DNA from: Arenicola marina
Taxonomy: Eukaryota; Annelida; Polychaeta; Arenicolidae
DNA: 64,000 nucleotides
Assembly: GCA_964019135.1 (NCBI GenBank)
Contig: OZ025258.1
Span: 29,196,186 to 29,260,185, forward strand
Direction: 5' to 3'
The position numbers and the translations under genes were made by a program. The notes beneath the pieces are model-generated. The model had not been told where the DNA came from and ran no database searches. It worked only from the letters and a program-made list of their open reading frames with translations. Each line of letters begins with the position of its first letter. Within the stretch, counting starts at the first letter, position 1. This document shows positions 11,180 to 64,000 of the stretch, piece by piece.

Positions 11180-12430
11180 CATTTCCCTTCAGATGTTCGT
11201 GGCGGTGACCAGACGGCCTGTGAGACCCCTACATGTGTACCATTTCCCTTCAGATGTTCGTGGCGGTGACCAGGCGGCCTGTGAGACCCCTACATGTGTA
11301 CCATTTCCCTTTCAGATGTTCGTGGCGGTGACCAGGCGGCCTGTGAGACCCCTACATGTGCACCATTTCCCTTTCAGATGTTCGTGGCGGTGACCAGGCG
11401 GCCTGTGAGACCCCTACATGTGTACCATTTCCCTTCAGATGTTCGTGGCGGTGACCAGGCGGCCTGTGAGACCCCTACATGTGTACCATTTCCCTTCAGA
11501 TGTTCGTGGCGGTGACCAGGCGGCCTGAGACCCCTACATGTGTACCATTTCCCCTTCAGATGTTCGTGGCGGTGACCAGGCGGCCTGAGATACCCCTACA
11601 TGTGTACCATTTCCCTTCAGATGTTCGTGGCGGTGACCAGGCGGCCTGTGAGACCCCTACATGTGTACCATTTCCCTTCAGATGTTCGTGGCGGTGACCA
11701 GGCGGCCTGAGACCCCTACATGTGTACCATTTCCCTTTCAGATGTTCGTGGCGGTGACCAGGCGGCCTGTGATACCCCTACATGTGTACCATTTCCCTTC
11801 AGATGTTCGTGGCGGTGACCAGGCGGCCTGAGACCCCTACATGTGTACCATTTCCCTTTCAGATGTTCGTGGCGGTGACCAGGCGGCCTGTGAGACCCCT
11901 ACATGTGTACCATTTCCCTTTCAGATGTTCGTGGCGGTGACCAGGCGGCCTGTGAGACCCCTACATGTGTACCATTTCCCTTCAGATGTTCGTGGCGGTG
12001 ACCAGGCGGCCTGTGAGACCCCTACATGTGTACCATTTGCCTTCAGATGTTCGTGGCGGTGACCAGGCGGCCTGTGAGACCCCTACATGTGTACCATTTC
12101 CCTTCAGATGTTCGTGGCGGTGACCAGCCGGCCTGAGAGACCTCTACATGTGTACCATTTCCCTTCAGATGTTCGTGGCGGTGACCAGGCGGCCTGTGAG
12201 ACCCCTACATGTGTACCATTTCCCTTCAGATGTTCGTGGCGGTGACCAGGCGGCCTGTGAGACCCCTACATGTGTACCATTTCCCTTCAGATGTTCGTGG
12301 CGGTGACCAGCCGGCCTGAGAGACCTCTACATGTGTACCATTTCCCTTCAGATGTTCGTGGCGGTGACCAGCCGGCCTGAGAGACCTCTACATGTGTACC
12401 ATTTCCCTTCAGATGTTCGTGGCGGTGACC
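11180..12430 (+). repeat. 61-bp minisatellite carrying a splice acceptor in every unit (21 copies)
   Basis: The core GATGTTCGTGGCGGTGACCA occurs 21 times between about 11191 and 12430, at spacings of about 58-62 bp. Each unit contains CCATTTCCCTTCAG followed by ATGTTCGTGGCGGTGACCAG. That is a pyrimidine tract and AG acceptor followed by the first 20 bases of the real exon at 12413. Many units also contain CCTGTGAGA, which resembles a 5' splice donor 27 bases after the acceptor; others have CCTGAGA and lack it. The last unit runs straight into the coding exon, whose downstream sequence (AGGCAGGTGTTACGC) is unique. The array therefore appears to have grown from the intron-exon border. Confidence 0.95.
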
Positions 12431-12544
12431 AGGCAGGTGTTACGCAACAAGCGGGACCAGCAGGCACGAATGGCGGCCCAAGCCAACGACACGGTCAAGC
12501 TGGGCGGGCAGGGCGCCAAGAAAACCAAGAAGAAATGCTGCTAG
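12413..12544 (+). CDS. last coding exon of a probable Rab-like small GTPase (partial gene)
   Basis: The exon follows the acceptor TTTCCCTTCAG and encodes 43 residues before TAG at 12542-12544. The start MFVAVTRQVLRNKRDQ has the amphipathic pattern of the final helix of Ras-superfamily G domains. It is followed by a polar hypervariable tail and a lysine-rich terminus, KKTKKKCC. A terminal Cys-Cys after basic residues is the usual double-geranylgeranylation motif of Rab proteins, which act as membrane-bound trafficking switches. Only this exon is visible; upstream exons would lie within or before the minisatellites. There is no G-domain sequence here to prove a GTPase, so the family call is inference from the tail, and another lipid-modified protein is possible. 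The intron 5' of the exon is filled by the 61-bp array, which copies this exon's acceptor 20 more times. Confidence 0.55.
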   Translation: MFVAVTRQVLRNKRDQQARMAAQANDTVKLGGQGAKKTKKKCC

Positions 12545-13096
12545 TATTAGTTATCTTACTTCCCCCCCCCCTCCTCACCCGCCCCCCCCCCCCCTCCGCC
12601 AACCCCTTAGTTATAGGAAATTTGTGCGATCACAATTGCGAGACTATTTTCAAAACCAGACCGATCAATTATTTTGCCTGTCGTGGTATTTTGTGTATAT
12701 ATCGTCGAATGTCATGTCTGATTTTATTTTAACCCGTGTAAGTATGTACACATGACAGCTCAGTAGATACAATTGTTTTATTATTATTATTATTATTGTT
12801 ATGGCTATCATTTCTAGTTTCTTATTGATAGATACCGATTCGTACCTTACCTCTTGTTGTGTATCTTATGGTTATAGTGGAAGTGATGTAGTTTGCGTTC
12901 TGTAATGAACCTACTTGAGCGAGTTCATTGTAATTAATAGCAATTCTCCCATCGCTGCATGGTCTTGCATGGTACCCGATTCTTTCATCTGGTAGATCAT
13001 TGTGTGATGTATTAAAAAAATTGGCGAATGGAGGAAAATCTGAATCAAGGTGAAGACAAAATACTTAAATGTCTCGATGACACGTGTAAAATGTTG

Positions 13097-13097
<1 letters not shown>

Positions 13098-13132
<35 letters not shown>
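13098..13132. repeat. TA dinucleotide microsatellite
   Basis: An uninterrupted run of about 17 TA units. Confidence 0.95.
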
Positions 13133-13135
<3 letters not shown>

Positions 13136-19944: not shown

Positions 19945-20082
19945 AATGTGCTCACTTAAATATTTTGAGCAGTGAACATGATTTTGCGGATATATATATA
20001 TATATGGAAATTGCAACAATGTGAAAAATGCTAGTTCATTCCGCAAAATCATGTTCACTGCTCAAAATATTTAAGTGAGCAC

Positions 20083-21674: not shown

Positions 21675-24600
21675 TCATAAGTCGTGCTCGGAAACGCACT
21701 GTTGCAAGTACTCTTGGAATAATTGTTGCTGTAACGAAACGAAGATTTGGTTAAAGGATGGATAGATGTCTGTCTGTAAGAGCACCTTCAGTGAATACAC
21801 GGATCAAACAGTCTTGGCAATCGGCGCGTCAGTTTCACAATATCACTCAATCTCACTGAATAGGGCAGTCGGCTCCGACGATCGGCTGTCATACAAATAT
21901 TGCGTGCAATATAGGTTACGGTAGAATTGCGCCAGTTGTTACGAAAGAAGAACTCACCTTTTTCTTGATGACAACATCCTTCACATATTGTCTGTTCTCC
22001 GCCATCTGACGTCTTTGCTTCCTCGTTAAGGTGACCCGACGTCTAAGACAAGGGATAGAACCAGGAACGCATTCAGATTAAATAGGAAATATATGATCGC
22101 GCACTTTAAATTATAAAAGTACCGACAAAATATTAAATCAGCCATGTCCGCTTCCATTTGGCAACTAATTAAAACAGTTTTTACAAGGCCACGCGGATTT
22201 TTTTGGTTATTTTCTTAATTAATTTTATAATTAATTAATTATACATTTGGCGTTCCACAGCTCACCTTGACGACAACTTGGCCAGCAGTAAGAGGAAGAG
22301 GGTGAGGACGCCCAGGGTGAGCAGCACGTACGCGTGGTAGACCTCCGGTACCACGGCCCACAGACCTCGCACGGGAGACTGCAACGAGACCACAGATCTC
22401 ATGCACTAGCCGACGACATGTGACCAAGTTACAACAACGCGAAGATTTGAAACCAGGGACGCATAACTAGCGGAATACCGTCTAAGGAGTCCAGTAAACA
22501 TATACCAAGGAATTTCACATCTATCCGTATCATGCAGTTAAAAAATAGGCAAATACACAAGTAGAAAACAAAACAGGAAATTAGGTCTTCAGTGGAATAA
22601 TACAACTTCTCTTGTTGTAGTACCATTTGAAATGACACCGATGCAAATGCATAGTTTAAACTTGAAATTAAGCTGACAGGGCCACGATGCAAATACGTAA
22701 ACCTTGAAGATAAGCTGACAAGAGTGCCATTTGCAATGACACGGATGGAAATACAAATAGTCGGTACGTATGGTCTTGTGAAGCGAGGCGTGGAGAATGC
22801 CGTACCAGGTAGAGACTGAGCGTCTCAGCGCCCTCCAGTCCCAGCAGACCAGTCACCAACTCCTTGGACGCCGCACTGGCCAGGAAGTTCACCAAGAGGA
22901 TCATGGGAAGAAAGATGCCCAGACAACACAAACAGGCACCTTTGAAGCGCGCGCGAAGGTTGAACGAGCAGTCCTCACTGAAAACACACAATATATACAT
23001 GGGTTAGAGTTTGCGGGGCTCTGTCTAATTCCTAAAAATAAAATCTTCACTGAACATCAAAAAGTTGTTTCAATGGAAATTATTTATATAGATATTTTTT
23101 TTAATGGAAATTTTGTGCATGTTGTTAAATGCACTTTTGGACCAGATTGGTGCATCTCTTCTGGAAAAGTGACTTTTTTGTGTACTACATTAATATTTCA
23201 ATATTGTTATAGTCTTCGGCCTGTTAAAAGATAACGCATACAATTGACAATTGGCGTTAAAAGATAACGCATACAATATCACCCTGGGCGTCTTAAAGAT
23301 CATGCGTCCAGTAAATTTTGAAGAAAATATTTTATTGTATGAAAACCTTTATCATATTAGCACAATGACTTCGTTCACTCGGAAAGACTTCGTTCACTCG
23401 GAAAACAAGTCATCCTATAATTTAAGCCTGTGTATATTATACGGCAGACCCACCGGTCCTTTTGCAGCCGCTCGTCCACAAGAGAGGCGATGGATTTACA
23501 GTCGTTCTCCAGAGAGTTGAGGGTGTTCTGTATAGTCTGGTTGATGGTTTTCTCGATGTCTTGGCAGACTTTTTCGATTTGGTTGACGCAGCGGTTGCCC
23601 TTGTTGGCCAGGGTCGGGACGTAGATGGTGGGCATGTCGAAGCCGGTCCGGTTGAGGCCCGGCCGCTTACACAGCTCCTGCACGATCTGCATCAGCACTT
23701 TCTAAAAGCAAACACCAGGGGGCGACACCACTTAGAGGTGAGGCTAACTACCGGTCGCCAGGCCGCTGACGGACCGCCAGCGAGGCGGTGGGGGGATGTG
23801 AGGGGGTGGGGGGATGTGAGGGGGTGGGGGGATGTGAGGGGGTGGGGGGATGAGAGGGGAGGGGGGTGGGGGAGAGTCAGGCTGGTGGTCGGTGGCAATC
23901 CCCAGGGCGTGGGAGGCTGGTATGGTGGGACTCGGACCAGACGACCTCAGGCAAACGTGACGCATAACATAACAGCTCGGGTAGGAAGCGGTGGCGGCGG
24001 GGATGTCCGCAGGGAGGTGGGGGGGGGGGGGAGGGTGCTGGGCGCGTGGAATGCGGGTAGGTCGGTGTGTACGATGGGCGCGAGGAAACACTGATTGTCC
24101 CCTGCCAGACCAGACAGATCCATCCCCCTTCCCCACTCACCCCCCCCCCCATCAAACTGATTTATAGCTCATATCACGCCGGCGATAGACTAGTAAAGTT
24201 TTATTTAATGCCTCAGTGCACTGAAGAACAAAGAGAACTCTTCTGCAGTGAACTGGCACCGAAATAGATCTTGTATATTCAATATTAATCCATACGGTGT
24301 TCATACAAAATGTACACTGGTGTTCTGGCACAATAGTTTGCCAGAGGTTAATACACACCAAGTCGCAAACACAATAATTACGAGACCTTGTTTGACCGCA
24401 ATTGGAGTGCAAACGTCAACATGTGTACACTGACGCTAATTGTTCATATAGTCCACAAAACTATAGCTACACATGGCTATATCAGTGTAAAAACACGAAA
24501 TCCTGTATAAGATGGGGTTAATCCGCAAACAGACTCATTGTGTTCCTAGTGAGACAACGATCTGGATTGACGATGGGCAGCTACATCGTGCCACCCACTG

Positions 24601-27600
24601 GTCCACTGTAGCATTACGACAAATTAACGGTACGAGCGAAACGTGGACCCCATCACGTATCTAGGGAAGCACTGGTGGAGGCCAACACTGAGAGGTGGAC
24701 TCCCTCACGTATTTAGGGAAGGACTGGTTGGCGCTAATACTGACAGGTGGACCCACTCACGTATCTAGGGAAGGACTGGTGGAGGCCAACACTGAGGTGG
24801 AGGCCAACACTGAGAGGTGGAGGCCAACACTGAGAGGTGGACCCCCTCACGTATCTAGGGGAGGACCGGTGGAGGCCAACACTGAGAGGTGGACCCCCTC
24901 AAGTATCTAGGGGAGGACTGGTTGGGGCTAACACTGAGGGGCGCACTCCCTCACCTGTCTGTCTGCCTCGTGGCCTGCCTCGTCAGCCTTACTGAGGTAG
25001 AAGCGCATGCGCTCTGCGTGTCGCTCGTTGAGCCGCTCCACGAGGTTGAGGGTCCTCTTGCACAGCGCCTGGCCCATCGGGTCGAAGAACACGAAGATCA
25101 TGTCAGCCATGTCACCTACATAAGGACAAAACGTCATTAACTGACAAGGTGCGACATCATGTCAGCCATGTCACTTACATAAGGACAAAACGTCATTAAC
25201 TGACACTGACAAGGTGAAACTTCATCAAGTCAGCCATGTCACCTACAAAAGGACAAAACGTCATTAACTGACAAGGTACGACATCATGTCAGCCATGCAA
25301 CATACACAAGGACAAAACGTCATTAACTGACAAGGTACGACATCATGTCAGCCATGTCACGTACATAAGGACAAAACGTCATTAACTGACACGGACATGG
25401 TGCAACTTCTTGAAGTCGGCCAGGTCATCTATATAAAGACAAAACGTTATCAACTGACAAGGTGCGACTTCATCATGTCCGCCATGTCACCTACAAAGTG
25501 ACAAAACGTTAACCGACAAGGTGAGACTTTATTAGGTAAATGATACAAAATATCTGACGCAATCAAGTAACGTTAGTGAAGTGGCGACACAACTCCCCAG
25601 CTGGCTAGCCGTACACTGTGATTTGTCCATGTGCGGAGCCAGCAATTCCTTACCCAGCCACATGATGGAATTGTCCACGTCAAAAGGGTACTTCATGTCC
25701 CCATCGACCAGTCCTGGAGTGTCAGCAAAGGTCACTAAGCTGAACTTCTTCTGCTTGGAGGTAGACACCTCGGTCGTCATGTAATCCATAACCCCTGCAA
25801 ACGAGAAAAACGACAGAAATCGCAATCATCCCAATCTGAAGAGGATCAGCCTTGAGGGTTCGGACCCAGTTGATAACGGTATACTGATCCGATTGCATAA
25901 CCGGTAATATTATTAGAAGGCTATGGCTCCATAACAATGATCATCCATCTTGTGGAAGGTCTAGACATGCAATAAAATCAGTTGCGAAAGCTGCGTGATG
26001 CAAAGATTTTACAAAAAGAGATAACAATTTGTTTGAGCAATACATGATATACTCTCAGTGCCCATTATAACGTAGCCATTGCCAGGGAAAATTCATGACA
26101 GATGGTCATGGCATACATGTATTACAAGATAAAGCAGTCTTTATTGATTATGTCTTAAGAAAAAGGCAAAATTTCTCCATAAAACGAAGGACAACCATAT
26201 ACAATTTGACATTAATACTGCACTGTACATCAATTACAAGACACTCGGTGGAGGAAATTTACACAGTAAGTACTCTGGGATTTCACTATAACAGGATAGG
26301 TCCTACAGCAATTACCAGAGCTTTCCTACAGTTAGTGAGAGATCTATCTATATCCACAAGAATGTATGACCTCGGCATAAGATTGCCTTCATAGACACTA
26401 CTAAATGCCATTGCTTAAAAAAACACTCATCACTACGGCAAAACAACTGATCTAGTTGTTTCCTCCATCAGTAAACAAAATTTTAAAACTATAAGTCCAA
26501 CAAAATGTAAACATTGGATGAGCAGGGCATTTACTTATGGACTTTTCTATAGTACACGTAGTCACTTTTAAGGAAAAAGTTCCATCTCCGTCCTTTTAAG
26601 ACTAATCATTTTCAATCGACTCCAAAACAAACGTGAACCACAAGCCAAAGATCTATTCTAGTATGCAGTCAACTGAAATCTTAAGCAATATGCACTTTGC
26701 ACCCAGATTATATTATCCTCTGAATACTTGCTGCAGCGCATCTGCAGCACAGCCCTTCACTTGGCAGCTCCCAGATCAGTGTTATTGGAATGCGGCCCAG
26801 TGGAGGAACTACGCCACAACTGCCATAATCACAAGGGTACCCCAATTACAATTATATTATTAATTATGTAACCAATTACAAACTAGGACATCACCCTCCA
26901 CATACATCTTGTAATACATAATAGTAGGAGGTACCTAAACTAGAGTTTCAGATTCCGCAGTTCCCAAGACGCAAAGTGCATTTCCAAATTTCTTTAATTA
27001 AATAACATAATAAGGTTCGGATGTGGAAAAAGTTGAAATTTCTTATCGCCTCTCCGTGGAATGGGTTGGCATGGCAACCGTCCAGACAGCTCTTCACCAG
27101 GCAGCTTTGGTATTAAACTGAAGGCGTCCTGATGGAGAGCCCCTGGACAGAAACCAATAAAGTCTGGCTCCTCCACCTGGTCGTCAACTGTCAATCTTCA
27201 TATCCCACAAAATATGACCACAATGACAAAGTCATCATCACAGTTGCTTCAAAATCCTTATTGGTTCCAGCACCCAGTGGAAAAATATATCTAGTAATCA
27301 ACAGATATTTAAAGAACTAAAATGTGTAGGTGTATGTTCTTTGATGAACTTACCTTCAAACTGTCGTAAGGGCTCAAAATGCGGGTATAAATGCAAGGTA
27401 GCATTGCCCTGAAACAAATAACAATTACTCTAGATGAATACAGGTACACTAGCACTCTAGCAGCAGGCCATAAATTGTTCCAAATTGATTTAGATATTAA
27501 TAGCCAGCGATATAATGAATAAAATAGGCTTGTGATGTTACAGCTGTTGGATTAAGGTTCCAGGCTTTTCGACAGCACGTCCAATAAATTATTCAATTCA

Positions 27601-39143: not shown

Positions 39144-39169
39144 GTAACGTTCAGTTCAGAGGTCTCTTC

Positions 39170-39360
39170 TCCCACATAAATATGCCCTAATAGGGGTCTG
39201 GAAGGGGGCGTCCAGTATCTAGTGTCGTTTTTTTTCTTCAAAAATCTGTGTCGATGTCGCTTTTTTCAGATCCATAGTGTCGGAATTTGTGGGTCAATGT
39301 CGAATGGCGATTTTTCATATATGTCCGTGTCGCGTGTCGCCATTGACCCTTACAGACCTC
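39170..39360. mobile_element. small GTGTCG-rich insertion in copy A, related to the 56.9-kb MITE
   Basis: Between AACGTTCAGTTCAGAGG and the exon 3 flank, copy A contains GTGTCGATGTCGC, TGTCGAATGGCG and GTGTCGCGTGTCGCCATTG. These resemble, reverse complemented, the CGACACGCGACATGG repeats of the element at 56910-57109. Copy B has none of this. Confidence 0.5.
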
Positions 39361-39723
39361 TCCTATTGAGTTACAAAAAGACGATCTATTCTCGCCTTGG
39401 TCGACGCATGTGCAACGAAAACCTTACTTCGAAATACTCTAGATCTGCAATGAGCCCTTCCCCCTGTCCAGGGGTGAAATAGGACAGAGCCAATGCCACC
39501 AGTCCTCGGGAAGCCATCAGAGCCGCCCGGTGCTCCACGGTGCCACCTATCGTGCCAAACAGGTCCAGAACACCTGGAAACGGACCGTCGCCTAGAAACG
39601 GATTGAAGATCACAACGTTAGCGTAAGGTTCAATTACAGCTCTATAGGTGTACCACATTTGGTTATTTTATCAACAAATTACAATTACAAAATATGCCGG
39701 ACCGCCTCGTGTATATATGACTC

Positions 39724-40149
39724 CAGTGGCGGATCTAGTGGGGGGGTTAGGAATGTTCTGGTTCCCAAGGGGAACCAGAACATACAACATAATGTTAACA
39801 TACATGTTAAAGTCCCAAGTCTTCAGAGAGCAACCCCCCCCCCTTTGGGAAACTGAACATACACTGTTAAAGTCGGGTTCTTCTTCAAGTCCAAGCCTCC
39901 CCCCCCCCCCCGGTCACAAGAGTCTTTAGAGCAGCCCCCCCCCCCACCGGGTCGCAAGTTTTCAGAGAGAGAGAGCAACATCCTCCTTGGGAACCTGAAC
40001 ATACACTGTTAAAGTCGGGTTCTCCAATTGCAAGCCCCCCACCCCTCGGTCGGAAGTTTTTCAGAGAGCAACCCCGCCCCCCCCACTCGGTCGGAAGTTT
40101 TTCAGAGAGCAACCCCCCCCCCCTTGGCAAATTCCTAGATCCGCCCCTG
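39724..40149. mobile_element. non-autonomous TIR element (CAGTGGCGGATCTAG family) in intron of copy A
   Basis: The left end is CAGTGGCGGATCTAG. The right end, CCTAGATCCGCCCCTG, is its inverted counterpart. The interior has three or so repeats of CGGTCGGAAGTTTTTCAGAG between C-runs. It is absent at the matching place in copy B, so it was inserted or lost after the duplication. Confidence 0.8.
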
Positions 40150-45333: not shown

Positions 45334-48300
45334 CTATAATTTGCTAATATCCATGGTATTGAAGGAATCTGGTTTTTGGTCCTTCACTCCTTCATTTGCT
45401 CCTAGATGACGCTTCAAGAAGTTCAGTGACTGTTCCCAGGCGTCTTCCTGTGCGCGCGCATGTAGTCTCGGGTCGCCGCCCCACACGGCGACGTTCTCTA
45501 GAATACATATATCTATTTATAGGCATATATCACATGTTGAAAAAATTCGACCATGGTGTGAAGATAAATTTTCAACCGCTGTCAGTTATCAGCTCAAGAA
45601 GAAAAGATGGTAATGGTAATGATATAGTAAATAAGAAGAAAAGTATGGTTTCCTAATGATCGATACATCAACTATATTCGAATAACATAGATACCGCGCG
45701 ATCGCTCCCTGCCTTGGTCCCAATATCCATATATATACAGTTATATATATATGACGGTTATGTTGCATAGTTACTTACTAAATAGTCCATGGTAGCTGCT
45801 GTAGAAGTGCGGACTGTGGGGAGGTTCGACAAGGTGCCCTGTTCCTGGGTACACAAGAACTTCCACATTTGATTTCCCGTGATCCTTCAGCCTTGCCGGT
45901 ACATATTTTGCAGTGTCTGGCTTGACCGATCTGTCGTCCGCGCCGTGTATTAAGAGGTACTCGCAATTCGCCCGCTCCACCTGTATAACCCAAATAATTG
46001 ATACGTTAATGATTAATGTGAAACGTAACATGCAGAGACCTGGAGCGAAACTCAAGTTAATTATTGATGCGGTGATTAATACTACAATGTATATCAAGGT
46101 CAAATATATACATGTCATATATTTCAATGGTCAGTATACATGAGTAAATTTATGTCTATATACATCTATATCTTTCTGGTTACGTACAGTTCTGTCACAG
46201 CATCACAATTTACACGTAGCTGCTATAATGTTCTCCTCTCTCCCGGGGTATCGGGTAGCATGACGTGGGCTGTTCACATTAGATCTCTAGTTATCTCTGT
46301 TATTTAACCTTGGCTATGCATTTGTTTGGGAGTCCCAAGAAGACATACCATATTTTCTTGGCCGCAATTTAAGTATCAGCGTCAAACAGATATCACCAGA
46401 GGAGTGGCATGACTGTGTGAATAGTACCTCAAAGCTTGATGGGTGCAGTCGTTTTAAACATCATCTGGAACTTGAGGCCTACCTCCATGTGGTGCGGTAT
46501 TCGTAAGCACAGAGTTGTTCTGACCAAACTACGATGTTCTAACCATAAGTTACTCACAGCGAAACTCCGCGCTACAATGCCGCAAGCAGGGCATGTACCG
46601 TAATGGCCTCATAGTGGTGGCAGAGAGCGTTTGGATGGAGTTATATTTACCGGAAAGGCACACGTGTCTGCATTCGGGAGGACTTCATAACAGCGACTGA
46701 ATGACACACCCTCATTTGTCCACACCATGTCTGATTCTTCTAAACTGTAAAAGGTCATTAATCATTAATAACCCAAAATAACTTGTGGCTTGCAGAGGAT
46801 ATGCGGATACATTTGCCGAGATAATCCAATATCGTACTCGACCCAATGATGCGTTTTTTGAGCCACACATGCAAATAAAAATAGTTTCGCGCTAAGAAGA
46901 TTTTGGAAAAACGTTTTGGACGCATTGTCTGACAGTGTAAATGTTAAATATGATGTTAGATGAAAAATAAACTGCTGTAATGTGCAGATGTTGATGGTGC
47001 ACACCAGAAAGCCACTTTTCCACATGAGATGCGCTCATTTGGCCCAAAAATGTGGGCTTAACAACATGTCCGTTTTGTTATTGCATAAGTATATAGGTGT
47101 ACTTACGCTAAGAATGGTAAATACATCATTTCCAGTCAAAACATCTTTACATTTCTCAAGAAAAATATGGCTGTATGAGTAACTTCAACATTATTAGAAG
47201 TTGCCAGTCGTAGAGTGCGGGATGGGTTAATTTGGCATTCAGACAGAGGGTACTCACTAATGACATGGGAAGATTTCCCCATGGTAGGTGTGGTCCACGA
47301 GTGTGTTCACGTATATCCCGTTGATTTCCACGCTAGCTTTGATCTACAGGGCGTGAAGTTGAAAACCAACGTTGTACTATGAAGCTTAGAAGTCTCAAAA
47401 CGTTGCAATCCAGTAGTTTAAATACACCTTTCAACTGTACATTAGGTCATCAAGATTAGACGGCAGATCTGGCATTACGTCAAACCTGGAGCGCACGGAC
47501 GACGGCTGAGCGTCCTACCATGCTAGCCTGAACCAGTGGTGATTGGCTGGTTGTATATTCAGGACGCTTTAACCACTTTTAGTCGTATCACGTAAATGGG
47601 AGAAGGAAGGGAGAGTGGAGCCATATCCCCGGGGGTAACCCCCTATTCTTTGCGAAAAAGGACATGGGATCTTTATCCTGCGACCACACAGACATGGCCA
47701 CAGCGCGGCTCGAACTATCGAACCACGTGCCGTTTGGCTCTCAGGTTACCAGAGCACTCAAGGCGAGCGCTCTAGTCCACTGAGCTACCGGGCCGGCCCC
47801 TGAACCAGTGGTGAATATACATGACGATATAGGAAAACTAATTTTAATCGGGTTCTTTACCTGATTTTTCAATTCAAGTTTGCTTGATAGTCAACATTTA
47901 GGGGCATATCTATGCTCAAGGCCTTAGGGCCCCCCCTTGAGAACTTGTAACTGTAAAAGTCTGGTTTCCGACGATATACATGGCAATCTGACATTTTGTA
48001 GATACAACCCCCGCTTCCAGGTCGCACCGCCCCCCCCCCCCCGCTGTCAAATTCCTGGATCCGCCCTGACCTTGTGGCAGACGACTGGAAGTAGCATGGC
48101 GATCTCGGCGCCCTTGGAGACTCCCATGACGCCCACGTGCGGCTTCCGGACCTTCTCGTGTCTTAGCAACAGGTCGACGCCAGCCTGAAACGCGATCTTC
48201 CGGCGTATTGGGACGTAGTACACAAGAACGTAAGCGTGCGTGTGTTCTATAATATACCAGCATCGATATAAACAATGTCCTTATTTGCATCCCCTTGCTT

Positions 48301-51300
48301 CATTTCATTGTGGTATTGCAACTATAGGGGAGGGGGGGGGGGGGCACTATAGAACACCATAGCCATGCACCACATCATTCTACCATATATCCTTGTCACA
48401 GGTTCACAATAACGTTCAGTTCAGAGGTTGGTCTAGTCTAGACTTGGTCTACGATGTGCAACGAAAACCTTACTTCGAAATACTCTAGATCCGCAATGAG
48501 CCCTTCCCCCTTTCCAGGGGTGAAATAGGACAGAGCCAATGCCACCAGTCCTCGGGAAGCCATCAGAGCCGCCCGGTGCTCCACGGTGCCACCTATCGTG
48601 CCAAACAGGTCCAGAACACCTGGAAACGGACCGTCGCCTAGCAACGGATTAAAGATCCCGAAGTTACCATAATGTTCAACTACAGCTCTAGGTGTACCAA
48701 ATTTGGTTCTTTTACCACAAAAGTACAATACTTATCAAAATATGCCGGAGCGCCTCGTGTAAATAATTCAGCAAGAATATATAGCAAAGTCCCCAGCGCC
48801 GCTTCGTAACCCCACCAAAAGGAACAATCTACAGGGCCCCGGCACATCGTAATGAGCAGAGCATCTTGAAGATTTACATCTGATACGGGACTGTGCTCCG
48901 AGGAAAGAGAGAATATATGCGAACAAAGGGGTCATTTGGGCTGCATAGAGGTGAATACCTAACTACATGTTGCGCCCTCTCCAGATTTGACGTAATGTCA
49001 GATCTGTCGTAATGCATAAGAACAAAATCGCAGTTCGTATGAATTTAGTGAGTCACGTGATGCAACTTTATTAGAAAATTAATTAATAGATAGTTATTAG
49101 TGGAAGTTTATAGTGCCGCCTTTTACATCAAATCCAAGCCTGTATCCCACAAGGCCAATATGTACATTATACCTGGGGGAACGAACAGCGTGCCCCGGAG
49201 TCGACCCTCTCGGATTTCGATCCGCTCCACATCTGGCCGGCGGTAGAAGCGGTCGCACGAACCGACGGCGAGAAGGGTGAAACGAGAAGGGTCAAGGACG
49301 GCATCAGCTTCTAGGAAACCGTCCAGGAGCGTCAGTCGGGTGATTATCGGGGCGGTCACGTTGCTCTTCAGCAGTCGCCTACCAGGCTTCTGCCCTGGCT
49401 CCTGGACCATGCTCCATAGCAACCCGACCGGTTCGACCCCTGCAAGTGAAATGAAATAATACCTTGGAGTTTTAGGCCACTTTTGTGCACATGAAGGCCA
49501 CACTGGCCACATGAATTGAAGCTGATTGAAACATGCCCCGCGCTTTCATGTGATTATATTACCTTACAAATAGGACAATATGTATGCATCACCACGTGAT
49601 GTCAATGATATTATGTTATATGTCAATATATGTCTACTTTTCAATTTGTATTAGGTATGTATATAGTTTATTTCAAAGCAACAATGAGCCCGAGGCCCTC
49701 GTGTTAAAAAAATGCAATACACATAATGACATGTGGCGGGTTCATACAATAGTACACTGGAACGTCATTCAGGTTCTCTCATCTTGCTGGCCAGATAAAC
49801 ATATTCAGACAATCTGTTCTGTAATTTCGTGCTCTGTGACATAACTAGTGCTAACAATTTATCTTTATTTGGTAGTCTCCAATAATGGGATTAAGCTCTC
49901 CCTGAGATTATCGTGCAAGCGACATACAAGAACAAAGTGGACTTCGTCATCTAACAAACCGCACTCGCTACACAACCTCTGTTCCACGGGCAGTGGCTTT
50001 GGCTTGTGCCATCTCCCAGTTTCAATGCGGAGGCGGTGGCTAAAGGTTCGGAGCCTAATTAAAGAATACATAAATCTGTTATTTTCCACATTAGCAAAGT
50101 ATGAAGGAAGCATGGGCAAAACACTATATTGTAAATATTGCGTACCACGAGAGGTTTCCGATAGGTCGGCTTGTACCGTTTGAAAATAACAATCCTTCGC
50201 CCGCTGCTTAAAGAGGTACATGAACGCCTGGATATCTCCAACGGACTGCCAGAGCCAGACATCCCCCATCCCCAGCGACATTAGCGAATCACGTACCAGC
50301 AACGCCCAGTTACGTCGTCGTAACTCTAAATCTTCCAACAGCACCTTATACAATCGCTTAACATACCGTGAATCATTCAAATGTATAACCTTTACCCAAT
50401 AACTGATTATTTTTCATGTCTAGTCGGCTGAGTTCACTCCTAGCTATATGGTTTGGGGTGCTGGTTTTAACCTTCAAAGTATTTAGTATGAATTCGTTCG
50501 ATTGCCTGGCCAGTATGGAAACCCCAAACTTCTGCACCGTAATTCAATATTGGGCTTATCAATTTGTCAAATAACTTCATACGATGGGTAGGACGGAGAG
50601 AATGAAATTTAGACATATTTCTCCATGTGGAATAAAGCCTTCGTAGCTTGATCAGCTAAAGTTTTCTGCGTTTTGTAAAATTTGCCAGAAGAGGACAATA
50701 CAACGCCTAAATAACAGAAAGTGTTAACTATGTCGATTTCTTCCCTGTTGTGATAAAACATGAGGCTTTTACGTAGATTTCCTCCCTTGTGAAAAATCAT
50801 CACTTTGCTTTTGCCACTGTTAACTACTAATTTCCACTCGTCACAATATCGTTTTAAGGCATCTAATGACTTCTGTAACTCTTCCTCAGATTCGCAGACT
50901 AAGACAGCATCATCAGCGTACAGCAATAAAAAATAACTTCGTTTGTCCTATGGAGATTCCTTCTACCCCTTGTCTCCTAATATATTCCTCCATGTCATTT
51001 ACATACATAGAAAACAAGAAGGGGGACAGTGTCTCGCCTTGCCGAACTCCAATAGCGGAGTCGAAACTTTCGAAGGTGGTGCCATCACAATGTAAACTTT
51101 GCACTTGACCTGTTCGCTAATATTCTATAACCTTCAAAAGCTGTCCCCTTAATCCATTTTTGATTAACATAAACCACAGACACTTCCTATTTACTCCATC
51201 AAAGGCTCTTCTGAAGTCGATAAAAGCGCAAAATAGACGACGCCCCTGTCATAAAGCATGAGACACAAGACTTTGAAGCACAAATATCTGATCGACAGTA

Positions 51301-53292
51301 CTATATGTCTTACGGAAACCTGCCTGCGCTTCCAACAGGATACCGTATTCATCAGCCCAGTTATCCAGACGATTATTAATAACTCGTGTAAACAGCTTGC
51401 CCAGTGAGCTCAATAGTGTTATACCTCTGTAGTTGCTAGCCGTGTCAATATCGCCCTTCTTATATAGCGGTATAATTAAACCTTCCGACCAAACACTAGG
51501 GAAGCAAAAACCTTTCATCAAGAGATGATTAAAAAGTTTCGTTATGGGGATGACAAGTATATAAATTCCGTGTATAATAAACTCGTTGATAATCATGTCA
51601 CATCCTGGAGTCTTGTTGAGTTTTAATTGTGAGCCCGCGTTACGGATATCTTCATACACAAACTCAGTGCTAAGCTCTAAATATATTTCGTCAACATCGC
51701 CATCTACAAGGCTTGCTACTGACTCGTCAACGTCATTCACATCATAGTCCGGGGTATTTAAACCCTTAAAATATTCATAAAAGACGTGCGAAGAAATGTT
51801 ATTCTTACGCCGCGATTTCACTCCTTTTAATAACTTCCAATATGGTTTGGCGTTTCTATACCGTGCTTGAAGTAGGGCCAGTGTATCTTTCTTCTCTCGT
51901 TCCTACTTATGTGATCGGACTGCTTCCTTAAAGGCCTTTCTAGCTGCTATCATATCACATCTATCCTGATCAGATCCGCGCTTTCTGTATAAATTCAGAC
52001 ACCTCATGAAGCTGTTTCGCTTTTGTTCAACAGTCGCGCTGTAGCATGCTGGTCTAAGCTTTCGCATGCTGCTTGTCGTGCTTTTGGTTCCCGTCAGGAA
52101 AAGAGGTTTAGCAACATCGTTAATAACGTCAGTGAGATTGCGTATCTTATCCTCAATCGTTTCTGCGCTGTTACAGGAGCCAATGTCTGATACAATTTCT
52201 TCAATGGTGGCCAATTTATCATTAAGCGACGCCACGTATACATCTCTCTTCTCCTGTTTCCAAACAAATTTAGGGCTACATTTATTCACATGGTTCCTAG
52301 CAACAAATCTGGCATTTAACACACATGACAGCGCGTTATGATCTAACACTTCTTGCGCAATATCACACACTTTAAAGTTAAAGTTGCATGTCGAGCTCTT
52401 TCCCGCCAAAACTAATGAGGTCAAAATACATATAAGAATCAGTCCTTGAATCATTCAAGACTTCTTTTATCTATATTCCACCCATACCAGACTGCCAAAT
52501 AGTGTCTCTTAGCCTTGTCCGTGATTTACCATAAGTTTTCATTTTAGTGGTAAACGTCATCAGTTTGTGTGCTTCGCGATGCTTTGGTATAAGTAGCAGT
52601 GCCGCGACCGAGTTCTGTGGTGTCCCGGGATAGACACGTTTGCCACACCACAGCCGAAACGGCGATGTTTATCAGGTTTCTAAATTATAGAATGAAACAA
52701 TCGAGTTTTCTGCAAATTTTGATATAAATTTCACCTAGGCTTAGTTTTGGCGGGAAAGAACTCCACATGCAACTTTAACCAAATCTTTAAACAGGTGTGG
52801 TGAACATATAATATAATCGACGACACTGCTACCTCGGCTAGAGTGAAAAGTGTACTCACCAACCCCTTTATCTTCACCAATTCTTCCATTAACAATGCGA
52901 AGATGACAAGCTTTACACAACTCTAATAGCTTCGTGCCATTTGGCGGTATCACAATATGCTTTCCACTTTTGTAAAAATAGAATAAGCGAGACAAAATTT
53001 ATCTTTTACTGTTTATTTTGGTTAGCTTCGAGCTTCAAACCATAAAATTTGTGCATTTATCGCTTTTAGAAGCTACTGTACCTAAATACGATCCACCCTG
53101 AGCAGGCATAGACTGCAGGTCTACCGCGCCATTCCGGTTAGCTTTGTAATGGGCGTAGGAATAAAACCGATCTCCATCCTCGCAAATCTGTGCTCGCAAC
53201 GTTACTTCCTGCCATGGTCGGAGCGCCCCCATGCGGATGTGCAGCGCGTCATCCACCAAGCAAGGGTTCGGTGTAACATCGATCGACGCCAT
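45334..53292 (-). CDS. peroxisomal acyl-CoA thioesterase/BAAT-like gene, copy B (intact, 433 aa, 8 exons)
   Basis: Exons in gene order are 53082-53292, 49173-49439, 48474-48637, 48071-48184, 47258-47343, 46651-46744, 45779-45980 and 45334-45497. They total 1302 nt, all GT-AG and in frame. Residues 1-150 ([20 protein letters not shown] ...) form the acyl-CoA thioester hydrolase/BAAT N-terminal domain. [13 protein letters not shown] starts the alpha/beta-hydrolase. GVSKG gives nucleophile Ser237; Asp327 or Asp328 (GADD) and His361 (GHLVEPP) complete the expected triad. Serine, rather than the cysteine of BAAT, favours hydrolysis of acyl-CoA to free acid and CoA. The last residues, SKL, are a type 1 peroxisomal targeting signal. 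Length fits the family (about 420). Intron 1 carries a LINE and the intron between exons 4 and 5 a SINE. Confidence 0.92.
47543..47798 (-). mobile_element. tRNA-derived SINE with 16-bp target duplication (copy B intron)
   Basis: Flanked by identical CCTGAACCAGTGGTGA at 47527-47542 and 47799-47814; copy A has a single GTGAACCAGTGGTGA there (about 37199). On the minus strand it begins GGCCGGCCCGGTAGCTCAGT, with GGTTCGATAGTTCGAGCC as a B-box region. That is the layout of a tRNA-headed SINE. The insertion is therefore younger than the duplication. Confidence 0.93.
49655..52947 (-). mobile_element. 5'-truncated non-LTR retrotransposon (LINE), decayed
   Basis: It is inserted in intron 1 of copy B. 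The empty site in copy A reads TTAGGTATCGCAAC; here GGTAT stands on both sides of about 3.3 kb. In sense order it has a fragment of an APE-type endonuclease (52741-52947, with [17 protein letters not shown]), an inter-domain region (51903-52454), and reverse transcriptase (51249-51821) with [19 protein letters not shown] and AGFRK. After a break come [13 protein letters not shown] (50913-51104) and, in another frame, YADDAVLVC (50609-50926). A C-terminal Cys/His motif, CSECG ... HFVLVCRLH (49865-50380), follows. Frameshifts, including one at an A/T run near 50925, and stops show it is dead. The clade is not resolved. Confidence 0.92.
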
Positions 53293-53509
53293 GTGTCTGC
53301 AATGAAAGTTTTTAGTGTATTATTTGGACTACATGATACATAATTAATTAATTGTCACGTTGGGGAGACACACATATGTATACCTGTACACCGTGTCAAG
53401 GCGCGGATATAGGGTGGGCCGGGGTTGGTGGGGGGGGGGGGGGGTGATGACCCCAACACTCTGGGCCCACGCCTGGTTTCAATGCCAAGAGGTTTTAATA
53501 CATTGCTGG

Positions 53510-53700
53510 GTTTGAGGAGGTTCCGCGGTAAAGCACCCGCCCCCCCATTTCGCTCGGTTGGGGCGTTTTACTGTCAAAATCCGCTCGGAAGGGGGTTTAC
53601 CGCCCAAATCAGCTCGGTCGGGGCGTTTTATCGCCAAAATCCGCACCGTCGGGGCGTTTCCGCCAAATTCCGCTCGGAAGGGGTACTTTTTCGCTCTATG
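53510..53700. repeat. short tandem repeat, GCTCGGTCGGGGCGTTTTA type
   Basis: About five units of roughly 35 bp share CCGCTCGG.(A/C)GGGG(C/T)GTTT.ACCGCC/TGTCAAAAT. It is absent or reduced to one unit in copy A (about 42690-42740), so it expanded or contracted after duplication. Confidence 0.7.
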
Positions 53701-56909: not shown

Positions 56910-57109
56910 AGGGCCCCATAGGGGCTTTTTCGACACGGCGACACGGCGATTTTTTAAATTGACAACGCGACAATGGGGTTGTCTTAGAATCGACATGCGA
57001 CATAAGACTTAGCGACACGCGACATGGAACTTTTCTTAAAATCGACACGCGACATGGACCTTTTCTTAAAATCGACACGCGACATGGCTACCCCCGCCTC
57101 ATGGGCCCT
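56910..57109. mobile_element. 200-bp MITE with ACATTT target duplication
   Basis: ACATTT occurs at 56904-56909 and 57110-57115; copy A has one ACATTT at the same place. The ends AGGGCCCCAT and ATGGGCCCT are inverted. Inside are four or five drifted repeats of CGACACGCGACATGG, with CTTTTCTTAAAAT spacers. Confidence 0.88.
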
Positions 57110-58445: not shown

Positions 58446-58460
58446 ATGAAAAATGGATGA
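58446..58460 (+). promoter_or_regulatory. four-codon upstream ORF overlapping the carboxypeptidase start
   Basis: ATGAAAAATGGATGA starts 7 bases before the main ATG in another frame and ends after it. If it is in the mRNA leader, it could lower initiation at 58453. Transcription start is not known. Confidence 0.4.
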
Positions 58461-61400
58461 AAGCGCTATTTGTTGGTTATTTTGCCTTATTATACTGTTC
58501 TGTCAACAGTATGCGTCATCAAAATCTTCTGCCGTTGTTGGTATAGACAAGGACCACTATATGCCGTATGACGAGTTGTCGTCAGCGCTCCAGAGCTTGG
58601 CGGACAGTTACCCTTCGCTGGCCCAAGTGTTTTCCATCGGCCAAAGCGCGGAGGGACGAGAATTATGGGTCCTGCAAATATCGGATAACGTGGAAGAGAC
58701 AGAGCCGGGGGAACCCATGGTGAAACTGATTGGAAATATTCACGGAAATGAACCATTGGGCAGGCAACTGCTTGTGTACTTTGCAGAGTACCTGCTGCAA
58801 AATTATGCGAGTAACAATACAGTGCAAGCTATCGTAGACTCAACCAGCTTGTTTATTATGCCAAGCATGAACCCAGATGGATTTGAAAAGGCAAATGAAG
58901 GCGACTGTGAGGACATTATTGGTAGAACAAATGCCAATAATGTAGATCTCAATAGAAACTTTCCTGACCAATTCAAGGAACTCAATGCAGAAATAGATAG
59001 TCAATATGACATGTATGATGGTGATCGTGATAGTACTACAGAATATCCTCAGTATTTAAATGGAGATGATGAGCCTTTCCAACCAGAAACAGAAGCTATG
59101 ATGAATTGGATTAAGAGTAATAATTTTATTCTATCTGCAAGTCTGCATGGTGGTAGTTTGGTAGCCAGCTATCCGTTTGATAGTGCACCATTATATCATT
59201 CCTCAAGGCCTAGCATTTCGCCAGATGATGATGTATTTCAACACCTTGCACATGTTTATTCTGATAATCACAAATCTATGCATGAAGGAAATGGTTGCAA
59301 AGACCAGAAATTTCCTGACGGAGTCACTAACGGCAATGAATGGTCTGAAATTATTGGTAAGTATTTTAAAAGTATTTTTTATATATATTTTATATATTTA
59401 GACAGTGGATATTTAGTTATGAAAGTATAGGCCAGGTTAAATATTAAAGTATTATAAAAGTTTAAAGCTAATGAGAATTTAAAATAACTGTTATGTTTAC
59501 TGTTACTTTTCCAATAGAGGAATCTTAGATTCAAATGGGATTTACAATGGTGATGGAAGTATGGTTTATCTGTGAGACTTTTAGTAATGCTAGTTTGTTC
59601 TTGTGACAGAGATTACTAAACATTTAGTCGATGTCATGAGAGACAGCTAATAATTGATAAGGAGTTTAGGATCTGGGATCTACAATTGGTACTGGTTTGC
59701 TTGTATTAATTCAGATGCCAAAAAAGGATTATCCCGGTATTATAAACTAGGATGCTGGGGTGCTTTGTGGTGGGTGTAGTTAGAAGAGAAACCAAGTCTT
59801 GTGTGGCTTGTAATGTGTTGTCTTCTGGAAATAATTCTGGATCCATTGATATACAGTTTTGAGGCCAAAGTCTGGTGCAGCTTCAAAGAGACAGTTTATA
59901 GTACACTATCATTTTGATGACAGCTGCAGCTGTCTAGCCTACATATTTTACAGACAGTTACATACATCAAGGTCTTATAATGATACACCTACCTACCAGA
60001 ATGACTTGTGATGCATACTTTAGGGTGATTTTTTTATTGGCTTGCTTTCATTTACAGGCTATAAGGCGATAAAATCAAAGTTATTTGACTTTCATTATTG
60101 TTATAGGTTTCCGGTAAGCTGGTGTCTATTATAGAACTGCTTGAGTAGATAAATTTTGTAATTTTATAAAATTTTAGAAAGTCTAAATTAGTCTGTTTTA
60201 TACATTTAGAAATTTATGCAAGTTAATTGGATCTTTTTATAGAGAACTCATATGCAAAATTTTTGTATTCCAAGGGGTTACTAAAGCAATATTGTTGTGT
60301 AGCAAAGATCTAAATGTAGTAAGACAGGCATATATGCTGTAATATTAAAAGCTGCATTTACATGTTTACAGATACATTTAAATAAAAATGTAAGCATTAT
60401 CAGTTACATAAACAGTAGACTTTTAATAGCTTTCACACACACTCCTTCTAAAATACATCAATCAATGAAGTAGTCTATCCATTCAGGTTTAATAAAATTA
60501 GAACAACAAGTAACACCTACACTTTAACTTCTTCTTGTACAATTGTTTAATTAAAGAATGCTAGTAAAATAAATTGTAATTTTTTCAAATGCTGTCTAAA
60601 TAAACATATTCAGCTTCCTTTATATATATACCCAGTATAACATATTTGTTTTAATGTGTTTATTTATTAGAGTTGTTTTTTTAGTTTAGCTTTGGTGTAT
60701 AATATTGTTAAAAGTTGTCGTTGTCTTATATAGTTGATGTTCCTGTATATTGAGTGTCTTGCAAATTTCCTTGTTTCCATTATGTTAGTACTAATATAAA
60801 CATGTAGATGTCTGGAAAAAAGTCTTGCACATATGCACATGTTCAAAGACAAGGTGTTCATTCAAGGGTAAAAACCACAAGAAATTTAGGTCAGGCCAAA
60901 TATCATTTACCAGTAGTAAAACCATGTTAGCATAATATCAATAGGCTAAATATTTATATAGTCCACAGGTTAATCTGTAGGTTGAAATTTAATGAATGTA
61001 TCTGAGTGTGTGAATGAATACTAAACTGTCTTATGGGACATGTTCTTCATTGTTACACCACATATTGTTGATGTACCAATGGTTGTTTTATATATCATAT
61101 AGATTGTTTTGCATGTGTTGAATTTAGATGTCAGTAGAACTGGTGAGAATGAGAAATAGTTGAGAATTGTTTATCAGTAATTCAGTTAATAAAAGCTGGT
61201 CATGATTTTCCTTATGAAGATTTATAACATAAGTTAAGAAAAAATTACCTGATTCGGAAGGATGAAATAAAAGTTTAAATTTTAATATTTCGATAACAAG
61301 AATATTTAAAAAGTATAAATTTTACTTTATCATGTTTTAATCCAGGACCATTCACATGAAATTCATTAACTTTTGATCACCATGTGCTTTCAGGAGGTAT

Positions 61401-64000
61401 GCAGGATTACAACTATATCCATGGCGACTGTTTCGAGATTACATTGGAGCTTTCTTGTTGTAAATATCCAAATTCATCAATGCTCAAGAAAGAATGGCAG
61501 AACAACAAAGATGCACTCCTCTCATTTACTGCTCAGGTCAGTGTGGATGTTCGTCCAAATTGTAGTGTGATTCAAGGGCTTTGATATAGCGAAACAAATT
61601 GTGTGCTGTTGTGGAAGACCGCCGTTACTCTACATGTACTCCCGAAGTTGTGGATCTTATGCTGGTGTATTGCCAGGTTCATTGCTGGTGTGGGGGGTCC
61701 CACATTTAACAGGATGCTATTTTTGTGACAATTTCTTTAATTGCAATCTATTTAAACAAAAATGTTATCACTCTTTGTTTCAAACTTTTGCTGTGAACTG
61801 TGACACGACTATCAAAAGTGACTATGGTTATGATATATATATATGCACAGCTCTGCAAGCCCACAGCCTTGTAAATCCACATCCGTAATTCTCTTTCGCT
61901 ATGCCTTACTGGCACACATTTTTGCATTTGGTTTTTTGCTTTTTTGTTATTTTATTAAAGACTTTGTCATACTTTATGCGCTCCAGATCCAGATCACCAC
62001 CTTTTGCCCCACTCCATACCTTGTAGACTCACATTGATTCGATTACAACCTTTTGCCTCACTCCATGCCTTGCCGCCCCTCATTGATTCGACCACAACCA
62101 TTTGCTCCACTCTGTACCTTGCAGCCCGCATTGATTTGATCACAACCTTTTGCCCCACTCAGTACCTTGCAGACCCACATTTATTCTACCACAACCTTTT
62201 GCCCCACTCTGTACCTTGCAGCCCCGCATTGATTTGATCACAACCTTTTGCCCCACTCCGTACCTTGCAGACCCACATTTATTCTACCACAACCTTTTGC
62301 CCCACTCCATACCTTGCAGCACACAACCTTTTGCCCCACTCTGTACCTTGCAGCACCACATTTATTCTACCACAACCCTTTGCCCCGTTCCGTACCTTGC
62401 AGCTCCACATTTATTCTACCATAACCTTTGGCCCCGCTCCCTACCTTGCAGGCCCACATTAATTCCTCCTCCACCTTTTGCCCCGGTCTTGTACCTTGCA
62501 GGCCCACATTGGTGTGAGAGGCTTTGTTACCGATGCCAGCGATGGAGAACCCATTCCAGAGGCCGTCATCCAGGTGGATGACCTCGACAAGAACGTGACC
62601 AGCGGCCAATTCGGGGACTACTGGCGTCTACTGGTGCCTGGGGAATACACAGTCACAGCATGGGCACCTGGGTACGTTCCGCTGGCCTGTGTTTATACAC
62701 CTTTTACATCCTTGCACGTACTAAATATGAAAGCAACACCAGATTGTACCTGGTCTGAGATAGACTTGGCTCCTCTCTTGTCCATTCCCATCATCGATAT
62801 GACGTTACAGTTTGAATCATCCTGGTTAAACCAGCCGAACTGATGCGAGTATAGGTGTTAGTAGCATGTCGAACGAACAAGCCTCCAATGAGTGGGAGTT
62901 GCGAAACGGTGAACACATTACTGAATGCGATTGTCTTTAACCAACTTAAGCCAGCCGTTGTGGCGGGGGACTACGATTAGAGCCTCGCTGTACACATGTC
63001 GTTATTTGTGCAAGATGAATTCCTTCTTCGATACGAATAAAGCTGCAGAATAGAGTCGTTAACGCAGTGTAGTGGACTAACATCAAGTAGGGTCAATTCT
63101 GGATCCTTTAGAGGGTCTCGGTCTGGTCAGCCAGCCCATTGGACTATGTGCAGGACAGCGATGCCACAGCCAGCCGATCCGATCTCCAACTATAAATCGT
63201 GATCACTTTGCCAGAAGCGACATTATGTCGCTGATTTCTGAGACCAGCGATCTCGACAACCCTAACCCGAATACCACACAATGTACTCGCCCAACAGGCG
63301 GTAGAGATCTCTGGTCTCTGAGAGACAGAACGCTCTGTAGCGCACTGATATCTCCACTTATCATCGGGGATCGCAATTGTATCGGGTGCCATATGCCTCG
63401 AGTTGGCGAATTTTGGAAGTATACACAAACCCCTAACGTTAACCAGCGACGATTCACCAGTTAGAAGCCATTGCCGGTGTCCACTTGGAGTTGTCGTGTA
63501 TCTTGAGGGTATGTTGTGTTCCAGATACCTCCCTATGACCGTCACCGACGTGCTCGTGGACTCGGGCGTCGCGGCTGTCCTTAACTTCTCACTGAGTGCA
63601 GACGAGACGAGGCCAGAGGAACCCTCCACAACTCCTGGGTGGGTGCTTGTCCATGGCCACTCCTGCATATTCAAGATGTGCCATTCTCTCATCACAATAT
63701 TCCCGGACTTTGTTGCCTATTTGATTTGGGTTTACCGGTCCGTCCAGCATGTAAGGGTACTATCATACTATATCATGCCACCATTTAATAGTGAAAATGG
63801 CCTCAAAGAGATAATTGTTCTATATGATACTTTTTTTCATTCGTTTGCTATTTTGTTTAAATTCTTAATGTGAGTACAGTTATTACATAGCTATCCACCC
63901 TCCCCTTTTAGATTACCAAGCATGATTCAGCCGAACGCCGAGTTACCGTCCTTGACTGCGTATCCCTACGCTGACCTAATTGACTACAAGGACCCATTGG
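58453..64000 (+). CDS. M14B metallocarboxypeptidase, CPD/CPM type (partial, first five exons)
   Basis: Exons are 58453-59356, 61394-61536, 62502-62671, 63525-63638 and 63912 to beyond the window end, all GT-AG and in frame. Residues 1-22 are a hydrophobic signal peptide. The zinc-carboxypeptidase domain follows: HxxE zinc ligands His97/Glu100 in GNIHGNEPLGR, substrate-binding NRNF (Asn167-Arg168), third zinc ligand His232 in SASLHGGS, and catalytic Glu320 in CFEITLELSC. Exons 3-4 give the transthyretin-like beta domain (GVRGFVTDASDGEPIPEA ... PGEYTVTAWAPGYLP). All catalytic residues are present, so the enzyme should remove C-terminal Arg or Lys in the secretory pathway or outside the cell. 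Whether more catalytic domains follow (as in CPD) or a membrane anchor (as in CPM) cannot be seen. Intron 2 ends in a minisatellite that repeats the exon 3 acceptor. Confidence 0.93.
59357..61393. other. first intron of the carboxypeptidase gene
   Basis: AT-rich sequence from GTAAGT to TGCTTTCAG. There are no repeats of note, no open frame above 65 codons that resembles a gene, and no RNA gene seen. Confidence 0.8.
61988..62511 (+). repeat. minisatellite of about 49 bp carrying the acceptor of carboxypeptidase exon 3 (about 11 units)
   Basis: The unit is ACAACCTTTTGCCCCACTC then CGTACCTTGCAG|(A/G)CCCACATT(T/G)ATTCTACC. TACCTTGCAG is the acceptor and (G)CCCACATTG the first bases of the exon at 62502. 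Nearly every unit keeps CCTTGCAG; the two outermost read CCTTGTAG and CCTTGCCG. The array ends at the true exon, which continues uniquely with GTGTGAGAGGC. Confidence 0.93.
62672..63524. other. third intron of the carboxypeptidase gene
   Basis: From GGGTACGT to TTGTGTTCCAG. An unspliced read-through open frame runs to a stop at 62841-62843, so intron retention would give a shortened enzyme lacking anything after the beta domain. No repeat or gene is seen inside. Confidence 0.6.

Follow-up and report, generated by a model that had tools for sequence, protein, structure and literature searches.

Minisatellites built on splice sites in annelid genes resemble the mirages of amphioxus

Minisatellite-like tandem duplications of 5′ and 3′ exon borders have been described in amphioxus globin genes, after earlier cases in Adh3 and other genes (PMC3087553), and such "mirages" also occur in PGBD5 and troponin C (PMC3902484). 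In the sections of both reports available to us the mirages are said not to disturb splicing in amphioxus; PMC3087553 presents reverse-transcription PCR (RT-PCR) results suggesting undisturbed splicing, describes length variation, cites somatic instability of Adh3, and proposes a model of intron gain. It has been suggested that mirages may give rise to new introns. Here we analyze 64,000 nucleotides of genomic DNA from Arenicola marina (contig OZ025258.1, positions 29,196,186 to 29,260,185; hereafter the window), in which arrays of this kind lie at the exon edges of three genes. A preliminary description of the window had pointed to similar arrays in amphioxus, and the comparison with the mirages of PMC3087553 and PMC3902484 proved apt. 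The arrays are probably exon-edge minisatellites of the amphioxus kind, here in an annelid: minisatellites would be born frequently, and be near-neutral at exon edges because the copy touching the exon is the one spliced, with a modest bias towards these edges.

Arrays were detected with Tandem Repeats Finder (TRF), and their units were then dissected copy by copy. The arrays at exon edges in the window and the exons around them are listed below, where lengths are in base pairs (bp) and negative positions precede the window.

Window -5266..-5142 and -3053..-2929 (both L002), + strand: upstream exons of Rab35, by homology.
11177..12434, + strand: array 1, 61-bp unit, 20.6 copies, 39 intron and 22 exon nucleotides per unit (TRF and unit dissection).
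12413..12545, + strand: last coding exon of Rab35 (MFVAVTRQ...KKKCC, stop), by homology to solved Rab-35.
24643..24954, - strand: donor-side array, irregular 52-bp units in several TRF rows, with GTGAGG in register.
24955..25115, - strand: model exon 6 of an EHD-like dynamin-family GTPase gene, by tblastn, with arrays at both edges.
25097..25527, - strand: array 2, unit of about 59 bp, 7.0 copies, 40 intron and 19 exon nucleotides per unit (TRF and dissection).
25654..25795, - strand: model exon 5 of the same GTPase gene, by tblastn homology.
61394..61536, + strand: carboxypeptidase D-like exon upstream of array 3, by homology.
61992..62510, + strand: array 3, 49-bp unit, about 10.5 copies, about 39 intron and 9-10 exon nucleotides per unit.
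62502..62671, + strand: carboxypeptidase D-like exon in which the regulatory domain begins; its acceptor carries array 3.

TRF and dissection bear out the preliminary description in that each of the three numbered arrays is built on an acceptor plus the first bases of the adjoining exon (22, 19 and 9-10, respectively), and in that the units are unrelated in sequence and belong to different genes on strands +, - and +. In Rab35, the 20 copies upstream read ...CCCTT(T)CAG|ATGTTCGTGG...; each ends in ...CATTTCCCTT(T)CAG followed by the first 22 exon bases, with one or two single-base variants, and AG is kept in all 20 of these decoy 3′ splice sites. Array 2 contains six upstream decoy acceptors; in three of them the G of AG has been replaced, by C, T and A. 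Array 3, which TRF splits into two rows (6.7 and 3.8 copies), contains ten, nine of them with AG. The fourth array, which had been described as repeating the donor side of the same GTPase exon, does start exactly at the exon border (24955), and GTGAGG recurs in register, one copy reading TTGAGG; the last exon bases, however, are only weakly echoed, and the units hold no clear exon sequence. Because donor-like GTGAGG is thus repeated with hardly any exon bases, this array abuts the exon rather than straddling it, and is a mirage only in part.

The exon edges on which the three straddling arrays are built are those required by protein homology. The two upstream Rab35 exons together with the last exon score 145 bits against solved Rab-35, compared to 86 against Rab-1B, and the alignment to Rab-35 is collinear straight across the junction at which the array lies; the C-terminus alone, as a query, retrieved no Rab from the PDB and no match from the protein database. 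Both edges of the arrayed GTPase exon (25115 and 24955) are set by tblastn of P0003, P0011 and P0025, for which homology runs collinearly into both neighboring exons; the match of P0116 is limited to the acceptor side. Relatives of the GTPase include many unnamed or uncharacterized proteins, two EHD1 or EHD1-like proteins and several with dynamin-type GTPase Pfam domains. The intron between its exons 5 and 6 measures about 0.54 kilobases (kb), of which a fraction of about 0.8 is array, and a DNA search with window positions 24000-25000 found one place only in the single assembly searched. The carboxypeptidase D-like protein has Pfam M14 and regulatory domains, and the solved relatives 1h8l, 3mn8 and 9j6z align across the 61536/62502 junction without insertion. 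Since homology fixes the borders of all three genes, splicing should use the copy that touches the exon body, and it is this homology across the borders that argues for a mature transcript unaffected by the arrays.

We next consider the surroundings of the window, 264 kb containing 102 arrays of period at least 15. A HECT-ligase gene adjoining the window on the minus strand was modeled with 54 exons. The underlying codon and splice model drew its training data from this same region, where two of 16 training stretches contained stops and were passed over, and used vertebrate splice-site weights. HECT Pfam matches occurred in three of ten exon frames submitted, two of them above the cut-off; the other frames gave one weak, unrelated match below the cut-off and six without a match. 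The gene carries 11 straddling arrays, placed by our own exon model and listed by window-relative position.

87472, 91776, 104925, 109340, 112836, 113635, 126085 and 131658, - strand: donor arrays.
89615, 99055 and 100157, - strand: acceptor arrays.

In one of these HECT arrays (107-bp unit), 71 exon bases are repeated 16 times. Two further arrays in the gene are of other kinds: an intron holds a 10-kb array of 219 copies of a 46-bp unit (window-relative 115763-125860, L014/L015), and a 50-bp unit present seven times at L007:9266-9615 (window-relative 83266-83615) repeats the end of the coding sequence with its in-frame stop codon, so that it spans the stop codon and not a splice site. Eight 10-kb stretches sampled from other contigs make a weak test of generality, as only L026 shows more than one exon by our model; there, the fifth exon of a gene that we take to be TRPM-like (from familiar motifs rather than a family search) bears, by the same model, an acceptor array of 92-bp units with about 40 exon bases. 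This array is split by about 0.4 kb of unrelated sequence (L026:8275-8679), perhaps a later insertion. In all, units that combine exon and intron across a border, as in mirages, were found in three window arrays, 11 HECT arrays and one TRPM-like array.

The arrays or the exon edges could in principle be artefacts of assembly or gene modeling. Edges outside conserved domains do rest on our own model, and inspection overturned one straddling call (77835-78211, where the edge moved from 78204 to 78260) and shifted a donor at 106731-106858 (from 106834 to 106879). However, the copies differ from one another by single-base changes as well as insertions and deletions, the three window-gene borders are fixed by homology, and amphioxus arrays of such a kind are reported with RT-PCR data in the part of PMC3087553 available to us, such that an artefact appears extremely improbable.

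The preliminary description had judged the placement at exon borders unlikely to be due to chance, and had proposed comparing array edges with randomized positions. This comparison was made over the 264 kb with five gene models (part of Rab35, the EHD-like GTPase, the carboxypeptidase, HECT, and a gene of immunoglobulin (Ig)-like exons so called by eye), comprising 92 exons and 174 splice sites. Surplus copies were removed, and seed units of each array's length were placed uniformly over the gene models, a seed counting as straddling with at least 4 exon and at least 10 intron bases. Periods below 20, low-complexity units and overlapping rows (102 to 85) were dropped before the counts, as was one wholly exonic array; the BAAT genes described below, whose edges are unmodeled, lie outside the counts together with two arrays between their exons (40034-40123 and 53552-53677). 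This exon-based classification replaced a test of unit consensuses for strong splice motifs (52 arrays), in which donors were slightly enriched (Kolmogorov–Smirnov P 0.014) and acceptors were not (P 0.62). Across the five genes, 14 of 44 arrays that are not wholly exonic straddle a splice site, compared to 4.93 expected under uniform seeding (P 0.0001) and 7.59 with seeds matched for G+C content (P 0.0045), corresponding to an excess of 2.8-fold and 1.8-fold, respectively. This modest excess holds also in the genes outside the window (HECT and Ig), where 11 of 34 straddle (4.17 expected, P 0.0013; GC-matched 6.07, P 0.014). For the window genes alone, three of ten straddle against 0.77 expected under uniform seeding (P 0.03), and GC matching raises the expectation to 1.52 (P 0.14). 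The earlier judgment therefore stands when the neighboring genes are included, and does not on the window alone.

These numbers bear on two other readings. Pure coincidence in a minisatellite-rich genome would be in keeping with the density of 102 arrays per 264 kb, a GC-matched expectation that already reaches 7.59 of 44, the window result and the Ig gene, in which none of six arrays straddles; the GC-matched excess, both overall and outside the window, makes it unlikely. Alternatively, the arrays may be born of a mutational process triggered at splice sites, for instance through co-transcriptional R-loops or the step in composition at exon edges. The excess itself points this way, as do five further arrays that stop within 6 bp of borders and the straddling array in a gene on another contig. 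On the other hand, 25 of the 44 arrays neither straddle nor abut an exon, a good part of the excess vanishes with GC matching, and the splice site lies at variable depth in the unit (8-79 exon nucleotides) rather than at the unit ends. We regard such a trigger as possible but doubtful; it would be compatible with the explanation that we prefer.

The composition of the units addresses where duplication begins. In 14 units the splice site lies inside, flanked by 8-79 exon and 21-52 intron nucleotides. Contrary to the earlier proposal of a mechanism that starts tandem duplication at splice junctions, this position of the site means that duplication does not begin at the junction itself. The seven acceptor units contain 31-52 intron bases (37-40 in five of them) and 10-40 exon bases, and the seven donor units (with the 91776 array left out) contain 21-46 intron and 8-79 exon bases. 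The intron span of the acceptor units has P 0.0065 under uniform unit placement, and would fit a need for a complete acceptor, with its polypyrimidine tract and probably branch point, in the exon-side copy. Unit length is divisible by three in only two of the 14, which rejects a reading of the arrays as protein-coding repeats.

Could the repeated splice sites be functional, selected as a reservoir of alternative acceptors and donors or as a splicing buffer? The units do carry complete sites, and many copies retain AG or GT, as in all 20 decoys of Rab35. Yet use of an AG-keeping decoy would introduce a stop codon in 19 of 20 cases in Rab35 (the remaining one shifts the frame), in three of three in the GTPase gene and in nine of nine in the carboxypeptidase gene, and the same holds for nine of nine decoys across the three HECT acceptor arrays, so that a truncated protein would result from nearly every decoy tested; the two unit lengths divisible by three are also the only ones to keep frame. 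In terms of conservation, acceptor copies keep the key dinucleotide in 44 of 52 cases and donor copies in 60 of 71. Over 16 arrays, 19 of 246 key-dinucleotide positions differ (7.7%), compared to 330 of 3699 flanking positions (8.9%), a comparison that is descriptive rather than a test, as copies within an array share changes. Overall, decoy AG and GT show neither retention nor purging. The idea that extra splice sites are selected for finds no support in this, AG and GT decaying no slower than neighboring bases, and a functional role is very unlikely.

We therefore favor the exon-edge minisatellite explanation stated at the outset, which may be set out in steps. Local tandem duplication, which is frequent in this genome, would by chance duplicate segments of 32-125 bp in which a whole splice site and 8-79 exon bases are included. 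Copies accumulate on the intron side, as the anatomy of the arrays shows, the copy touching the exon body retaining an intact splice site and the reading frame. The outermost copy would be spliced, probably by exon definition, and the array removed with the intron at close to no cost, while duplications altering the exon body would be selected out. The presumably unused copies drift, with AG and GT changing about as fast as the bases around them, as counted above. Straddling of exon edges occurs at 2.8 times the uniform expectation, or 1.8 times after GC matching, and this bias may reflect a mutational preference or an unmodeled feature of exon edges. The origin by tandem duplication, the use of the exon-touching copy and the neutrality are what we infer; use of that copy by splicing would in turn account for the tolerance of arrays at exon edges. 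Selection that tolerates extra acceptors, the other possibility raised in the preliminary description, thus fits best, leaving an edge bias of about 1.8-fold (GC-matched) to 2.8-fold to be explained.

Several points weigh against this explanation. The choice of splice site rests here on homology rather than transcripts, and the exons of HECT, Ig and part of the carboxypeptidase gene on our own region-trained splice and codon model. The GC-matched excess is modest, is not significant in the window genes alone (P 0.14) and is accompanied by the lack of straddling arrays in the Ig gene. In addition, plain tolerance does not account for the five arrays that halt within 6 bp of an exon but contain none of it, where 1.69 are expected within 10 bp (P 0.026). 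The dinucleotide losses are not independent, since a single AT variant recurring within one array makes up six of them; two "GG" losses, from an array rich in G, appear to be misplaced matches, and one carboxypeptidase loss is an alignment gap. Lastly, the loss of the G in half of the GTPase decoys, to three different bases, hints at selection against decoys.

The host can be placed from its own genome, which measures 867 Mb and in which the window belongs to contig C11. The annelid erythrocruorin linker (PF16915) has four exon matches, every one above the cut-off, at two places on contig C14, which also carries ten of the 29 globin matches. The mitochondrial contig (15,942 bp) carries nad1-nad3-nad2-cox1-cox2-(possible atp8)-cox3-nad6 on one strand, where the atp8 reading is without a Pfam match and nad6 falls below the cut-off; this gene order is the annelid ground pattern. 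Its code has AAA at conserved lysines, AGA at serine positions and TGA for tryptophan, with no AGG in COX1. Taken together, the linker genes and the mitochondrial gene order and code indicate an annelid. A lancelet host was considered and rejected on these grounds and on two others: COX1 differs from the vertebrate form, which lancelets share (e.g. LAGAITM versus LAAGITM), and the GFP family, expected in lancelets, had no match in a search run without a positive control. The annelid host points to mirages not being confined to cephalochordates.

Other features of the window and its flanks include the following. Rfam and tRNA scans of the window found nothing.

1..11008, continuing to window -1438 (L002, 1.4 kb past the window start), strand not assigned: 47-bp satellite, 265 copies, 12.4 kb, by tandem-repeat scan.

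This satellite takes up the greater part of the last Rab35 intron (15.3 kb), lies immediately upstream of array 1, and touches no exon. A BAAT / acyl-CoA thioesterase gene is present in tandem duplicate, the copies about 10 kb apart at 35700-42700 and 45700-53300 (- strand); two of three frames submitted to Pfam, all from the first copy, match BAAT families. Between BAAT exons, at 50400-52500 (- strand), open frames resemble, by eye, a non-LTR reverse transcriptase, and the one frame searched had no Pfam match. A near-identical 30-bp unit forms short arrays on opposite strands at 57013-57087 and window -17021..-16944, about 74 kb apart. Many copies in 25115-25527 (-) and in HECT 100157-100513 (-) read AG|GT at the border, and could in principle act as both acceptor and donor, in dual-specific or recursive splicing.

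The arrays are real, and they extend a structure that already has a name to a new phylum, where its density is high, rather than forming a new category. A search of open-licence literature by titles and abstracts, with queries mostly not specific to annelids, found no report of splice-site-straddling arrays in annelids; earthworm metallothionein genes have intronic minisatellites and exon-4 duplications, with no straddling units mentioned in the available part of PMC12783039. More speculatively, and with the odds against it, a mutational tendency towards minisatellite birth at splice sites could be general among animal genomes: present in a chordate and an annelid, it would be detectable wherever minisatellite turnover is high and would provide a standing supply of duplicated splice sites for shifts or origins of introns and exons. 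Each array is in any case a natural test of splice-site choice, in which as many as 21 near-identical acceptors follow one another and one yields the correct protein; mirages are hence useful for studying how splice sites are picked and how introns change, and they call for caution when genes are predicted in genomes rich in minisatellites.

Among known systems, as far as the available parts of the reports describe them, variable internal tandem repeats of human segmentally duplicated genes (PMC2812944) are likewise minisatellites at exon borders touching splice sites, but in recent paralogs they alter transcripts and give rise to new introns, whereas here the homologous protein is unchanged across three borders. 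The Rogers model of intron gain by tandem duplication (cited in PMC3087553) shares duplicated segments with splice signals; unlike its products, the annelid arrays lie inside introns. The dual-specific splice sites of the UBC tandem array (PMC10809524) are also tandemly repeated and recall AG|GT in the GTPase and HECT 100157 arrays, although each UBC unit is a complete ubiquitin monomer, spliced in varying numbers, and the annelid arrays are not coding repeats. In green algae (PMC3887541), tandem repeats are more numerous near intron–exon junctions, a likewise non-random placement, counted there by region. The closest match is with the mirages known from amphioxus in Adh3, the globins BflGb6 and BflGb9, PGBD5, troponin C and other genes, whose units also span the exon–intron border on acceptor and donor sides, with AG or GT in many but not all copies and lengths of 10-72 bp (Adh3) or 150-160 bp (globins). 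Polymorphism and somatic instability are reported there, while the annelid arrays are known from one assembly. What differs here is the annelid host, the 11 arrays in one gene, the measured unit composition and decoy decay, and placement tested against a seeding null; with a measurable edge excess, a set of cases becomes a countable process in a second phylum.

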